NCBI GenBank assembly: GCA_012514895.1
Contig: JAAYZK010000188.1
Location: forward strand, 24,785-88,784
DNA length: 64,000 nucleotides
Origin: Planctomycetota bacterium
Lineage (GTDB): Bacteria > Planctomycetota > Phycisphaerae > SM23-33 > FEN-1343
Reading direction: 5' to 3'
The first letter of the stretch is position 1, and every line of letters begins with the position of its first letter. The notes below the pieces were generated by a model. The model was not told the origin of the DNA and did not search any database. It saw nothing but the letters and a program-made list of their open reading frames with translations. Below are positions 49,403-55,809 of the stretch, piece by piece. A program made the position numbers and the translations under genes.

Positions 49403-50761
49403 GCGGAATCGAACACCTCCACCCAGCCAGGTTGGCGTGTGGGCGCCGCCGAGCGAGACATCACGCCGGCCGGATCGGTCTTCCTGTACGGCTACCCTCA
49501 CGTACCGCGGATGAGCACAGGCGTGCACGATCCGCTGCTGGCTTCGGCGATCTTCCTGGACGACGGGCGGTGCCCGGTGGTCTTCGTCGCCTGCGACCTG
49601 ATCTGGCTGCCGCGCGATCTGACGATCCGCGCCGCCGGGCGGATCGAGCAACTCACTGGCGTCCCGGCCGGCCACGTGATCGTCACCGCCACGCACACGC
49701 ATTCCGGGCCGGTGACCACGCGGATGATCAGCAACGAGGCCGATCCCGTCGTGCCGGCCCCCGACGGGGCTTACCTGGACCGGCTGGAAGAGTGCATCGT
49801 CGAGGCGGCCCGGCTCGCCCACGCCGACGCGCGGCCTGCGACGGTCCGCCTCGGCCGCGCCGACGCCGCGGGCGTTGGCACGAACCGGCGCGATCCGGCC
49901 GGGCCGGCCGACCTGGAGCTGCCGGTCCTGGTCGCCCGCGCCCGGTCCGACGGGGCCGTCCTGGCCGTCATGACCGTCTGCGCCATGCACCCGACGGTGC
50001 TGCACGAGGACTCTACGCTGATCAGCGGCGACTTTCCCGGCCTGGCCCGCCGCCGCCTGCGCGGCCGCGTGCTGGAGCCGGGGCGGCCGCTGGTCTACCA
50101 CACCGGCGCTGCCGGCGACCAGAGCCCGCGCCACGTCACCGCCGCCAACACGCCGGCCGAGGCCGAGCGGCTGGGGGGGCTGCTGGCCGACGCGATCGTC
50201 GCCGGCCTGGCCGCCGCCGAGCCGGTCGCCCCCTCGCTGTCGGTGGAGTCGCTGGACGTGGAGCTTCCCCTGCGCGAACTGCCAGGGGTCCCGGAGGCCG
50301 AGGACCGCGTCCGCCGCGCCGCGGCGCGGGTGCGGGAACTGGCCGCCTCCGGCGCGCCGGCGGCGGCGGTGCGGACGGCGGAGGTCGATGCGTTCGGCGC
50401 AGAGGAGACCCTGGCCCTGGCCCGCGCCGCCCGGACGGGCCGCCTGCGGGAGGCCGCCGACCGCTGCCGCCCGATCCGCGTGACGCTCGTGCGGATTGGG
50501 CCGCTGGCGCTGGTGTGCTGGCCGGGCGAGGTTTTCGTCGAGTTCGCCCTGCAGGTGCGGCGGCGGCACCCCGAGGCGCACGTGATCGCCCTGGCCGGCG
50601 GGGAGCTTCAGGGTTATCTTGTGACGCAGCAGGCCGTCGACCAGGGCGCCTACGAGGCGGGCAACGCGATCTTCGCCGGTCCGCCCTCCGGCCGGCGCCT
50701 GGTGGAGGCCGCGCTGGCACTGCTGGAACGGGCGGGCGGGACCGCCGGGCGGACCCCATGA
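49379..50761 (+). CDS. Neutral/alkaline non-lysosomal ceramidase-like protein
   Basis: WRVGAAERDITPAGSVFLYGYPHVPRMSTGVHDPLLASAIFLDDGRCPVVFVACDLIWLP; VIVTATHTHSGPVT; PVVYHTGAAGDQSPRH-like segment (LVYHTGAAGDQSPRH). Confidence 0.75.
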   Translation: MNTTRDCQAESNTSTQPGWRVGAAERDITPAGSVFLYGYPHVPRMSTGVHDPLLASAIFLDDGRCPVVFVACDLIWLPRDLTIRAAGRIEQLTGVPAGHVIVTATHTHSGPVTTRMISNEADPVVPAPDGAYLDRLEECIVEAARLAHADARPATVRLGRADAAGVGTNRRDPAGPADLELPVLVARARSDGAVLAVMTVCAMHPTVLHEDSTLISGDFPGLARRRLRGRVLEPGRPLVYHTGAAGDQSPRHVTAANTPAEAERLGGLLADAIVAGLAAAEPVAPSLSVESLDVELPLRELPGVPEAEDRVRRAAARVRELAASGAPAAAVRTAEVDAFGAEETLALARAARTGRLREAADRCRPIRVTLVRIGPLALVCWPGEVFVEFALQVRRRHPEAHVIALAGGELQGYLVTQQAVDQGAYEAGNAIFAGPPSGRRLVEAALALLERAGGTAGRTP

Positions 50762-52107
50762 GCACCTTCCTGATCTTCGACCTGGGCACGACGCTGTTCA
50801 AGGCCTGCCTGTTCGACGCCGCCGGCGGGACGGTCGCCTCGGCCTCCGTCGCCGCCCCCGTCGAGCGTCCGCGGGAAGGCTGGTCGCAGATCGACCCGGC
50901 GGCCTTCCGGGCGGCGATCGCCCATCTGGCCGGACGACTGCGCGCAGCCGAGCCGGCGGCGATGGATCGGGTCCGGCGCGTCAGCTACGCCACGCAGACC
51001 AACAGCTTCCTCCTGCTGGACGGACGGGGCGAGCCGGTGTCGCCGATCCTGCTCTGGAACGACGTGCGGGCCGACGACGGCGGCGCCCTGCGCGACCTGG
51101 CCGGCGAGGCGGACTTCGCCGGTCGGACCGGCCTGGCGTCCCTCGACCGTCAGTTCGCCGTCGCCAAGCTCGACTGGCTGCGGCGGGCCGACCCGCCGCT
51201 GTGGGCCAGCGCGCGGCGGCTGTGCCTGATCGGCGATTACCTGGCGTGGTGGCTGACCGGCGCGCACGTCACCGAGGCCGCCGCGGCGGGCCTGACCGGC
51301 CTGGTCGACATCCACCGCCTCGCCTGGCGCGACGGGCCCGTGCGGCGGCTGGGCCTGGAGCGCCTGGCCCTGCCCGCCATCGGCCGCGCGGGCGAGCCGG
51401 TCGCCCCCCTCGCCCCGGACGTCGCGGGGCGGCTGGGCCTGCCGCCGGGCGCGCACCTGCACCTGGGGTGCCTGGACCAGTTGGCCGGCGCCGTCGGCGC
51501 CGGGGCCGTCCATCCCGGCGACGTCTGCCAGACCACCGGCACGGTCCTGTCCACCGTCTGCCTGGCCGACCGCTTCGACCCCGCGCTGGCCGCCCGGGGC
51601 GTCGTCCAGGGACCGGCGATCCGTCCGGGCCTGTACTACCGCATGGCCTTCACCCTCTCGGCGAACCTGCTCGATGCCTACCGGCGCGAGCACGCCGGCG
51701 ACCGGACGACCGCGGACCTCACCGACGCGGCCGCCGCCGTCGCCGACGACAACCTGCCCGAACTGGACGCCCCGGCGTCCGAGGCGGCCGGTCGGCCGGT
51801 CTTCCGCGGCGTGCGGCCCCATCACGCGCACGGCCACTTCGTCCGGGCCATTCTGTACGGCGCGGCGGCGTCGCTGCGCGACCAGGTCGACCGCGTCTGC
51901 CCGGACGGGCGGCCCCGCGAGATCCGCTGTGCCGGCGGCGGCGCACGGAACCTCCAGTGGCTGGCCATCGCGGCCGACACGCTGGGCATCCCCATGATCC
52001 AGGTCGACTGCGACCAGCCCACCAGCCGCGGGGCCGCCTGGCTGGCCTGCCCCCCCCAGACCGCCTGGCCGCCGCCCCGCACCGCCGCCCTCCTCCGCCC
52101 CCGCTGA
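50758..52107 (+). CDS. FGGY-family carbohydrate kinase
   Basis: MSTFLIFDLGTTLFKACLFDAAGGTV; SPILLWNDVRADDGG; HLHLGCLDQLAGAVGAGAVHPGDVCQTTGTVLSTV; IRCAGGGARNLQWLAIAADTLGIPM. Confidence 0.9.
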   Translation: MSTFLIFDLGTTLFKACLFDAAGGTVASASVAAPVERPREGWSQIDPAAFRAAIAHLAGRLRAAEPAAMDRVRRVSYATQTNSFLLLDGRGEPVSPILLWNDVRADDGGALRDLAGEADFAGRTGLASLDRQFAVAKLDWLRRADPPLWASARRLCLIGDYLAWWLTGAHVTEAAAAGLTGLVDIHRLAWRDGPVRRLGLERLALPAIGRAGEPVAPLAPDVAGRLGLPPGAHLHLGCLDQLAGAVGAGAVHPGDVCQTTGTVLSTVCLADRFDPALAARGVVQGPAIRPGLYYRMAFTLSANLLDAYRREHAGDRTTADLTDAAAAVADDNLPELDAPASEAAGRPVFRGVRPHHAHGHFVRAILYGAAASLRDQVDRVCPDGRPREIRCAGGGARNLQWLAIAADTLGIPMIQVDCDQPTSRGAAWLACPPQTAWPPPRTAALLRPR

Positions 52108-52194
52108 GCGGCTGCGGGGGCAGCGGAGGTCCGGGGCCTGGAAAACGGCCTAACGATACTCCAATCGAGCCGTTCGGCTGGACGGCGGGGGGGC

Positions 52195-52223
52195 TTGACG
52201 GCCCCGCCGCCGGGTGCTAAAGT
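52195..52223 (+). promoter_or_regulatory. Sigma-70 promoter upstream of leader ORF/attenuator
   Basis: TTGACG-17 nt-TAAAGT. Confidence 0.7.
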
Positions 52224-52231
52224 GATAGTGT

Positions 52232-52327
52232 CATGGCCAAGGTCGCTGTCATCGCCGCCGGTGTCGCCGCGGCCGTCCTGCGGGGCGGGCTACCGTTGCC
52301 GCGCGCCGGCTGCGGCGGAGACGGCTG
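52232..52327 (+). CDS. Putative 31-aa leader peptide
   Basis: ATG 8 nt after the -10 element: MAKVAVIAAGVAAAVLRGGLPLPRAGCGGDG; followed by an intrinsic terminator before the next gene. Confidence 0.4.
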
Positions 52328-52359
52328 AGACCTGACCTGACAACGCGTCACGACTCTTC

Positions 52360-52397
52360 GAGCCCGTTTCCCCCTGGAAACGGGCTCTTCTTTTTTG
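52360..52397 (+). terminator. Rho-independent terminator (possible attenuator)
   Basis: GAGCCCGTTTCC-ccct-GGAAACGGGCTC followed by TTCTTTTTT; perfect 12-bp stem. Confidence 0.9.
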
Positions 52398-52436
52398 TGG
52401 AACGCCGGTTGGCTTGAATGGCAGAGGAGACACGCG

Positions 52437-53210
52437 ATGACCCAGATCGACAAGGAGCGCTGGTCGTCCATGGCCGACTGCTACGACCGGATGGCCGATT
52501 ACCTCGTGCCGCGGTACCACCTGCTGCAGGACGAGGTGCTCGCGCTGCTGCTGGCCGAGGGTGAGCCGGGCCTGGTGGTCGATCTGGGCGCCGGCAGCGG
52601 GATCTTCCTGGAGAAGGTGCTGAAGGCCGCGCCGGCGGCGCGGGCCGTCTGGGTGGACGCCTCGGCCGATTTCCGCCGCGTCGCCGGCGAGCGGTTGGCC
52701 CCGTACGCCGACCGCGTCACGTTCGTCCTGTGCCCCTTCGACGAGGCGTGGGAGGCCGCCCTGCCGGCGGCGCCGGAGGCGATCTGCTCGATGTCGGCGA
52801 TCCACCACCTGGACGGGCCGGGCAAGCGGGCGCTGTACGGCCGCTGCTTCGACGCCCTGCGGCCGGGAGGATGGTTCTACAACATCGACGAGATGTCCAC
52901 CCTCTACGACGACGCCTACCGCCGCACGCTGGCCTACTGGGTCGGCCACGTCGACCGCGCCCGCCGCGGCGTGCCGGCCGAACTGCAGCCCTATGCCCGC
53001 GCCTGGTGCGACAGGTTCGAGGGCTGGAAGCGGCGGAACGTGGAGGGCGCCGGCGGCCCCAAGCAGCCCGGCGACGACATCCACGAGAGCTTCGTCGCGC
53101 AGATGCAATGGTTGCACGACGCCGGCTTCGTCGACGTCGACCTGTTCGCCAAGTTCCAGCTCTGGTCGGCGATCGGGGGCAGGAAGCCGCCGGCGGGTGG
53201 AACGGATTGA
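52437..53210 (+). CDS. Class I SAM-dependent methyltransferase
   Basis: LVVDLGAGSGIFLEKVLKAAPAARAVWVDASADFRRVAGERL; ICSMSAIHHLDGPGKRALYGRCFDALRPGGWFYNIDEM; ATG 52437 preceded by AGAGGAG. Confidence 0.9.
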   Translation: MTQIDKERWSSMADCYDRMADYLVPRYHLLQDEVLALLLAEGEPGLVVDLGAGSGIFLEKVLKAAPAARAVWVDASADFRRVAGERLAPYADRVTFVLCPFDEAWEAALPAAPEAICSMSAIHHLDGPGKRALYGRCFDALRPGGWFYNIDEMSTLYDDAYRRTLAYWVGHVDRARRGVPAELQPYARAWCDRFEGWKRRNVEGAGGPKQPGDDIHESFVAQMQWLHDAGFVDVDLFAKFQLWSAIGGRKPPAGGTD

Positions 53211-53241
53211 TGTCCGCGGTCCCGGCCGCTGCCATGGGAGC

Positions 53242-53433
53242 ATGGATCGCAAGCGGCTGAAGATCGTCAAGATGAAGCAGGCCCACGACGACGGGCCCGT
53301 CCCGGGCACGCCGGCCGAGCGGATCGCCATGGTCTGGCCGCTGACCGTCCAGGCGTGCCTGTTGAGCAAGCGGTATGATCCTGAACGAAGACTACAGAGA
53401 CATATTACGGTCCTTCGACGACGAGGGGGTTGA
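53242..53433 (+). CDS. Small conserved protein, putative partner of a nucleotidyltransferase module
   Basis: MDRKRLKIVKMKQAHDDGPVPGTPAERIAMVWPLTVQACLLSKRYDPERRLQRHITVLRRRGG; overlaps the next small ORF. Confidence 0.6.
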   Translation: MDRKRLKIVKMKQAHDDGPVPGTPAERIAMVWPLTVQACLLSKRYDPERRLQRHITVLRRRGG

Positions 53434-53521
53434 GTTCCTGCTGGTCGGCGCGTATGCCATGGCCGCGCATGGATACGTTCGCGCGACGATGGACATGGAC
53501 CTCCGGGTCCGCCGTCGTTGA
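53375..53521 (+). pseudogene. Truncated nucleotidyltransferase (toxin-like) N-terminus
   Basis: MILNEDYRDILRSFDDEGVEFLLVGAYAMAAHGYVRATMDMDLRVRRR*; stop directly after the DxD-like catalytic region. Confidence 0.65.
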
Positions 53522-53574
53522 CGGCGTGGTTTCCCGTCGTCGGCGCGGGAGTTCTGCCGCAGGCCCCCGCGGGA

Positions 53575-55809
53575 TCAAGGGGAGGGGCGGGGCTCTTCGA
53601 GCAGCGTTTCCCCGCCCCCGGCCAGTTCCCGCCGCCGGCCCGAGAAGGGCAGGATCGCCGTGGCGGCCGTGCCGGCCGGGAGGGCGACGGTCCAGCGGAA
53701 GCGGTCGGCGTCCATCCGCCAGGCGCTGGCGATGCGGCCGTGCGGGCTGTCGTGGTAGGCGCTGACCCAGTCCAGGCCGGCGATGGGGTGGGGCTGAAGG
53801 AGTGTGTGGCGGAAGCCCGGCGCGTCGGGATCGGGGCGGATGCCGGCCAGCGTGGTGTAGAACCAGTTGTCGTAGCCGCCCATCATGGGGTGGTTGAGCG
53901 AGCGCGGGCCGTGGCGGTCGTCGACCTCGGCCTCGCCCCAGTACTCCCACAGCGTGGTGGCCCCGCGGGCGATGAGGTGGCCCAGGCCGGGGTAGGTGTC
54001 CTGGTGCATCAGGGCCAGGGCAAGCTGCCCGTACCCGTGGCGGGTGAGGGCATCGAAGAGGACCCGCAGGCCCATGATGCCGACGGTGAGGTGGGTGTCG
54101 TGCCGTCGGACGTCGGCGGCGAGGCTCGCGGCGACGGCGGCGGCGGCGCCGGGAGGGACCAGTCCGAACTGCAGGGCCATCGCGTCGGCGGTCTGCGAGC
54201 CGAACGTGTGATGCTCGGCGTCGTAGAACCGTGCGACAAACGCCCGGGCGATCCGCTCGGCCTGCGCGGCATGGCGTTCGGCGGCGGACCCGCGCCCCAG
54301 GTGCGCGGCCATGCGGGCCGCGACGTCCGTGCAGCGGTAGTACCAGACCGTCGTGGTCAGTTCCTCGGGCGTGAATCGCGGGTAGGCGCTGACGCCGGGG
54401 TCGAACCAGTCGCCGTACCCGCCGGCGAGGATTCCGCCGTCGGCCAGGCGGTCGAAGTGGGCCAGGACCGTTTCGATGGCGTCCCAGTGCCGGCGCATGG
54501 CGTCGTCGTCGCCGTAGTAGAGCCAGAGGTACCAGGGGATGAGGACGGCCGCGGCCATCCAGTCGGGCCGCGCGGTGCCGCAGGCGCGTTTGCCCGGCGC
54601 GACGTTGCAGGGCAGGCCGCTGTTGCCGGCGCGGGTGGTGTCGATGTCGTCGAGGTACTTCTGCCAGAACGTCCTCGACCGGTAGTTGAGGATCGCGTAC
54701 TCGCAGACGATGTGGGCGTCGCCCAGCCAGCCGCACCGTTCGCGGGCGGGGCAGTCGGTGGGCAGGCCGTGGATGTTCGAGCGGAGGGTCCACAGGGCCA
54801 TGCGGTGCAGGCGGTTGAGCCGCTCGTCGGAGCAGGCGAAGGCCCCCGCGGCCGGCAGATCGGTGTGGACGGCCACGCCGGTGACGTCGTCGGCCGTCGG
54901 TGCCCCCGGCCAGCCGCGGATCTCGGCGTAGCGGAAGCCGTGGTAGGTTAATCGCGGCTCCCACGTCTCGGCGCCGCCGCCGCGGCAGGTGTAGACGTCC
55001 TCCTGCTCGACGCCGGTATGCTTGACGCCCGTGCTGGCGGTGTCGATCATCCCGTCGGGGCCGGTCGTCTCGGCAAAGCGCAGGCGGATCGTCGTGCCGG
55101 CGGGGGCTTCGGTGCGGATCCGCAGCCACCCGGCGAGATTCTGCCCCAGGTCGACCACGAAGCATCCCGGCCGCGGCTCGGTGATGGCGGCGGGGCGGAG
55201 GTCCTGGATCCTGCGGATCGGCGGGAGCGTCTGCGGCTCGAGCCTGCCGCCGGGGCCGGGGACGCTCTGGACGGGCAGCCATGCGGCGTCGTCGAAGCCC
55301 GGGGCGTCCCAGCCGCGCTGTTCGAGGCGGGCGTCGTAGTGCTCGCCGGCGTAGACGTTGGCGGCGGTGACGGGCCCTGCGGCGCAGCGCCACGCCGCGT
55401 CGGTCGCCACGAGCACGCGCGAGCCGTCGGCCAGCGTGATGTCCAGTTCGGCCAGCAGGCGGGGCGACCCGTAGCTCAGCCCGCCCCAGACGAGCGTCTG
55501 GTTGAACCACCCATCGCCGAGCATGGCGCCCAGGACGTTGTCGCCGCGCCGCAGCAGCGGGGCGACGTCGTAGCTCACGACCAGGCACCGCCGGTCATAG
55601 TCGGTCTGGGCCGGGTCGAGCACGTGGTCGCCCACGCGCCGGCCGTTGAGGAACGCCTCGCAGTATCCCAGGCCGCAGATCCGCAGGCGGGCCGCCGCCA
55701 CGTCCGCCGCCAGCGAGAACGCCCGCCGCAGCAGCGGCGCCGCACGGCCGCGCGGCCCGTCGGGCATGGCGATCCAGGCGGCCTGGAGGGTGAGTGCATC
55801 GGTGTTCAT
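53575..55809 (-). CDS. Alpha-L-rhamnosidase (GH78)
   Basis: AAWIAMPDGPRGRAAPLLRRAFSLAADVAAARLRICGLGYCEAFLNGRRVGDHVLDPAQTDYDRRCLVVSYDV; GLPTDCPARERCGWLGDAHI; GATTLWEYWGEA; SLNHPMMGGYDNWFYTTLAGI. Confidence 0.92.
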   Translation of the reverse strand: MNTDALTLQAAWIAMPDGPRGRAAPLLRRAFSLAADVAAARLRICGLGYCEAFLNGRRVGDHVLDPAQTDYDRRCLVVSYDVAPLLRRGDNVLGAMLGDGWFNQTLVWGGLSYGSPRLLAELDITLADGSRVLVATDAAWRCAAGPVTAANVYAGEHYDARLEQRGWDAPGFDDAAWLPVQSVPGPGGRLEPQTLPPIRRIQDLRPAAITEPRPGCFVVDLGQNLAGWLRIRTEAPAGTTIRLRFAETTGPDGMIDTASTGVKHTGVEQEDVYTCRGGGAETWEPRLTYHGFRYAEIRGWPGAPTADDVTGVAVHTDLPAAGAFACSDERLNRLHRMALWTLRSNIHGLPTDCPARERCGWLGDAHIVCEYAILNYRSRTFWQKYLDDIDTTRAGNSGLPCNVAPGKRACGTARPDWMAAAVLIPWYLWLYYGDDDAMRRHWDAIETVLAHFDRLADGGILAGGYGDWFDPGVSAYPRFTPEELTTTVWYYRCTDVAARMAAHLGRGSAAERHAAQAERIARAFVARFYDAEHHTFGSQTADAMALQFGLVPPGAAAAVAASLAADVRRHDTHLTVGIMGLRVLFDALTRHGYGQLALALMHQDTYPGLGHLIARGATTLWEYWGEAEVDDRHGPRSLNHPMMGGYDNWFYTTLAGIRPDPDAPGFRHTLLQPHPIAGLDWVSAYHDSPHGRIASAWRMDADRFRWTVALPAGTAATAILPFSGRRRELAGGGETLLEEPRPSP

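Follow-up and report, generated by a model that had tools for sequence, protein, structure and literature searches.

A candidate transcription attenuator with a leader open reading frame upstream of a methyltransferase gene in Planctomycetota

The region ahead of a methyltransferase gene in a Planctomycetota bacterium is, judged from its sequence, probably (at a rough probability of 0.7) a transcription attenuator acting in cis on that gene. It lies in a stretch of 64,000 nucleotides, here called the window, from a genome of 4.9 Mb in 504 contigs. A promoter, a short leader open reading frame (ORF), a terminator and the gene follow each other, and sequence comparison and computation brought out these parts, their conservation together with the gene, a conserved fold and pairings that exclude one another. 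The entire arrangement is seen again ahead of the closest orthologue found, and the layout is thus more than a product of chance. The original prediction had offered two options, attenuation in cis or a discrete small RNA (sRNA). The former is favoured because leader, terminator and methyltransferase recur as a unit in an unrelated gene neighbourhood, with an antiterminator pairing in both copies.

Results

The gene proposed to be regulated encodes a class I SAM-dependent methyltransferase of 257 aa (52437 to 53210, on the forward strand, as are the promoter, the leader ORF, the RNA regions and the terminator described below). Its ATG has its own AGGAG Shine-Dalgarno sequence. The best Pfam match of the protein was Methyltransf_25 (E = 1.2e-10), and the family searches gave no assignment to RlmA or Erm. 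The upstream gene, which ends at 52107, encodes an FGGY carbohydrate kinase, and downstream an alpha-L-rhamnosidase gene on the opposite strand is convergent with the methyltransferase. Beside the rhamnosidase gene there is a 48-aa ORF that is cut short (53375-53521; MILNEDYRDILRSFDDEGVEFLLVGAYAMAAHGYVRATMDMDLRV...); a Pfam search of it gave no match, and by eye it looks like an N-terminal piece of a nucleotidyltransferase.

The promoter (52195-52223) is of the sigma-70 type. Its -35 box TTGACG (52195-52200) is followed by a 17-nt spacer and an extended -10 element (TGcTAAAGT, ending at 52223), from which we infer that transcription starts at about 52230. It is the sole promoter-like site within 50000-55000, where shuffles gave an expectation of 0.1. 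The terminator (52360-52387) has a perfect 12-bp stem with a 4-nt loop (z = -6.35), the longest stem among all terminator-like sites in the 60 kb scanned. It consists of a 5' arm (region 3, 52360-52371) and a 3' arm (region 4, 52376-52387) and is followed by the T tract TTCTTTTTT (52388-52396), the predicted 3' end of a terminated RNA of ~167 nt (from about 52230 to 52396). These findings agree with the original prediction, which had named a TTGACG-17-TAAAGT promoter with a start at about 52230, a perfect 12-bp terminator with a T tract, an RNA of ~165 nt and the methyltransferase ATG at 52437; the extension of the -10 element comes in addition. An 11-bp inverted repeat with one internal mismatch (52184-52211; of the type GGCGG-GGGGGC / GCCCC-GCCGCC, RNA fold z = -4.2) has its centre on the -35 box. 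This repeat may serve as an operator or mark where the kinase transcript ends, and no clear counterpart of it was seen in the second copy of the region.

This second copy was found in a search of 397 genomes of the class, which gave one close orthologue of the methyltransferase, with 68% protein identity, in a Phycisphaerae MAG from another family of the same class (JAFGKA010000122.1; L010/L025, G354). The order of elements in L010 is that of the window: a promoter (TTGACA-18-TATACA, 1262-1291), a 34-codon ORF with its ATG at 1302, 10 nt past the -10 element (9 nt in the window), a GC-rich terminator (AAAGCCCGCTTCCGCGTGGAGACGGGCTTT, its tail rich in T) and the methyltransferase gene, which starts with an ATG at 1501. 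The original prediction had counted a lack of terminator conservation as evidence against itself, and the terminator does recur upstream of this methyltransferase gene. In L025 the neighbour upstream is transcribed divergently and the one downstream convergently, leaving promoter, leader and methyltransferase isolated. That the terminator might close the kinase operon was also considered and rejected, as the homologous terminator has no upstream gene pointing toward it, and since the upstream neighbour there is divergent, the terminator cannot close an upstream gene. A conserved pattern derived from the leader had a single occurrence in each of the two genomes and was absent from the remaining 395, and a search with the leader DNA across the class found nothing beyond short GC-rich chance matches. 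The covariance model R1, run on 12 genomes, returned the two known copies and weak matches, of which the four inspected (L036-L039) lacked the promoter-ORF-terminator layout. Viral contigs gave no match.

A separate sRNA of ~167 nt (52230-52396) could alternatively act in trans, with the methyltransferase being expressed from a weak promoter of its own. The RNA does have a strong promoter at one end and a strong terminator at the other, and terminated products of attenuators are able to work in trans, peTrpL being a reported case (PMC7298713). However, initiation of the methyltransferase from its own promoter, which the original prediction had listed as the case against attenuation, finds no promoter-like site between the terminator and the gene. 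In addition, the RNA precedes the methyltransferase gene, with its orientation unchanged, in two unrelated gene neighbourhoods, and was found nowhere else. We regard the separate sRNA as improbable; a terminated RNA of this length is expected under either reading, and the sRNA probably arises as a by-product when attenuation terminates transcription.

The leader ORF (52233-52328, 31 codons) is near-leaderless. Its ATG (52233-52235) lies ~3 nt past the predicted transcription start, without a Shine-Dalgarno sequence, and aligns with the ATG of the L010 leader. The length and the peptide sequence given in the original prediction hold, and the start codon is at 52233 instead of 52232. Frame 0 had the top coding score in both leaders (0.22 per codon in the window and 0.09 in L010, the references being 0.33 for true genes and -0.27 for off-frames), with one other frame scoring almost equal to it in L010. 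The similarity of the two peptides had p = 0.11 in column shuffles, and the clearest stretch common to them is LxGGLxLPR (codons 16-24, 52278-52304), with synonymous changes at Gly19, Leu20 and Leu22. Toward the C-terminus of the peptide, conservation is seen at Leu16, Gly18, Gly19, Leu20, Leu22, Pro23 and Arg24. The original suggestion of sensing by Val/Ala codons is therefore not upheld, as Val is not conserved in the relative and the conserved residues of codons 16-24 form a Leu/Gly/Pro/Arg set. At the 3' end of the ORF the frame differs between the leaders, yet region 2 of the RNA (see below) is conserved there as nucleotides, which fits with selection on the RNA and the position of the ORF more than on the C-terminus of the peptide.

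RNAalifold gave a common structure for the two leaders. Its pre-terminator part had z = -4.0, none of the 500 column shuffles preserving the conservation class being as good, and it beat 99.8% of local shuffles; the structure was derived from those two leaders themselves, for which refolding shuffles are the fairer test. The outer stem pairs 52241-52245 with 52351-52355, and four of its five pairs have changed on both sides between the leaders. Region 1 (52248-52258), the putative anti-antiterminator, pairs with region 2 (at 52315-52325), with nine of nine pairs kept in both leaders. Region 2 (52315-52326) extends to the first nucleotide of the stop codon of the leader ORF and can pair with region 3 instead. 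It is the best aligned partner of the terminator 5' arm, with 10 pairs in the window and nine in L010 (19/20 cells; p = 0.02 with global and 0.037 with local shuffles); the single-sequence energies of the 2:3 duplexes alone were not significant (p = 0.15 and 0.18). The mutually exclusive 1:2, 2:3 and 3:4 pairings are thus conserved in the two sequences. The antiterminator pairing that the original prediction had proposed to look for is present in both copies, and the covariation looked for in the leader amounts to eight pairs changed on both sides, seven of them outside the terminator, which is thin as it comes from two leaders. The fold of the whole RNA (z = -4.6) owes most to the terminator, the value being -1.9 without it. 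The energies of terminator and antiterminator were similar, at -21.8 and -21.1 in the window and -16.8 and -19.1 in L010.

The fold at 52241-52355 could in itself bind a ligand or a protein that decides between terminator and antiterminator, as in a riboswitch-like or protein-binding leader, with the ORF being incidental. The better conservation of the fold (z = -4.0) than of the peptide (p = 0.11) and the pairs of the outer stem changed on both sides are in line with this. However, no Rfam family matched the leader at the gathering score, the structure was obtained from the same two sequences, and an incidental ORF is at odds with both ATGs lying 9-10 nt past the -10 element, with both frames being open and with region 2 lying at the leader stop codon. 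We therefore consider a ligand- or protein-binding leader unlikely.

The effect of a ribosome on the pairings was simulated by masking, for the transcript before region 4 is made. Pairing of regions 2 and 3 was near zero when the leader was untranslated and also when the ribosome was on the stop codon. With the ribosome at most sites in codons 3-24, ~8-13 pairs formed, the exceptions being codon 12 in the window (two pairs) and codon 3 in L010 (five pairs); these counts also take in pairs immediately flanking regions 2 and 3, a point most relevant for L010. In the full transcript at equilibrium the terminator won with every ribosome position, and a kinetic choice must hence be assumed, as it generally is for attenuators in the choice between terminator and antiterminator. 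A stricter switch index, compared with dinucleotide shuffles, had p = 0.005 in the window and p = 0.56, not significant, in L010.

Discussion

According to the attenuation model, RNA polymerase would start at about 52230 and the leader ORF would begin almost at the 5' end of the transcript. Without translation regions 1 and 2 would pair, the terminator (3:4) would form and the ~167-nt RNA would be released. A ribosome that is slow or arrested in codons 3-24 would cover region 1, so that regions 2 and 3 pair and the polymerase continues into the methyltransferase gene, and a ribosome at the stop codon would cover region 2 and the terminator would form again. We infer that the ORF is translated, and that its translation is the sensing step has, in our view, slightly better than even odds. 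The logic of the 1:2, 2:3 and 3:4 pairings is that of classical leuL and other amino-acid attenuators of Proteobacteria. The leucine attenuators are similar also in the Leu codons that precede region 2, a feature more marked in L010, but the run of control codons is not significant in the window and the regulated gene is for a methyltransferase, not a biosynthetic enzyme.

A close parallel in layout is ilvBNC of C. glutamicum (PMC11857589), where transcription starts one nucleotide from the start codon of a near-leaderless ORF, followed by antiantiterminator, antiterminator and terminator, and where a short terminated transcript (~200 nt) is also made. In the 15-aa ilvBNC leader, however, Val/Ile/Leu codons form an evident run, and this leader precedes a biosynthetic operon and has been tested by mutations, whereas the planctomycete leader, predicted from sequence, has 31 aa without a clear run and precedes a single methyltransferase gene. 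In tlrB (yxjB) of B. subtilis (PMC6851288) a leader peptide and a conditional terminator precede a methyltransferase gene; this system has a 9-aa leader with an RYR arrest motif and a Shine-Dalgarno sequence, responds to tylosin, encodes RlmA(II) and has a hairpin that sequesters the Shine-Dalgarno sequence. With this precedent for a methyltransferase under leader-peptide attenuation, the signal could be a drug that targets the ribosome, sensed when the nascent peptide arrests near codon 24, and the methyltransferase would modify a component of the translation machinery as in tlrB. The LxGGLxLPR stretch does end at codon 24, near the last simulated stall site that leaves region 2 free. In contrast to tlrB, the planctomycete system has neither the RYR motif nor a Shine-Dalgarno sequence for the leader, the window leader is devoid of any R/K-X-R/K motif, and the enzyme was not placed in RlmA or Erm by family search, which makes a drug signal very improbable.

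Our best guess for the signal, a tentative one, is instead that charged leucine tRNA runs short at Leu codons 16, 20 and 22. The supply of leucine or branched-chain amino acids is the leading guess because these codons are conserved in both leaders (L010 has LLGGLLL) and because distant orthologues of the enzyme stand beside leuB (L027, 4001-5904), ilvC and leuA (L028, 1296-7354), asd (L030, 3950-5871) and aroE (L011, 700-2256); both comparisons were made after seeing the data. The window leader uses the rare codons CTA and TTG, which make up 1.8% and 1.2% of the Leu codons in neighbouring genes. The Leu content is 3/31 in the window (p = 0.52) and 8/34 in L010 (p = 0.015), and no clear run of one control codon is seen in the window leader. 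It is rather doubtful that, in planctomycetes, a leader peptide with a GGLxLPR arrest motif on a near-leaderless mRNA attenuates an uncharacterised methyltransferase family. If this were true, the GGLxLPR leader would be a nascent-peptide or leucine sensor and would suggest that the enzyme acts in amino-acid or translation stress.

Leader-peptide attenuators are known mainly from Proteobacteria, Actinobacteria and Firmicutes (PMC2965389, PMC1262725), the candidates in actinobacteria including amino-acid attenuators (PMC1262725). In the part of the literature on Planctomycetes that was covered, no title or abstract described such an attenuator, and a case in Planctomycetota backed by comparison would add a further phylum to those with this mechanism. 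The attenuator would also offer a testable handle on an uncharacterised methyltransferase, and the amino-acid biosynthesis genes next to its distant orthologues may hint at the role of the enzyme. A search for relatives with the single protein as the query found none and an alignment query found six. The distant orthologues (45-49% identity) are from MAGs labelled Anaerolineae, 'bacterium' and Planctomycetota, and the upstream sequence read had no comparable leader; for the L012 orthologue, the aroE neighbourhood was assigned from the likeness of its upstream DNA. Divergent genes for HTH regulators adjoin the methyltransferase in leaderless orthologues, MmyB-like in L027 (3055-3879) and HTH-cupin in L030 (3140-3766), which suggests that the methyltransferase gene is regulated differently from lineage to lineage.
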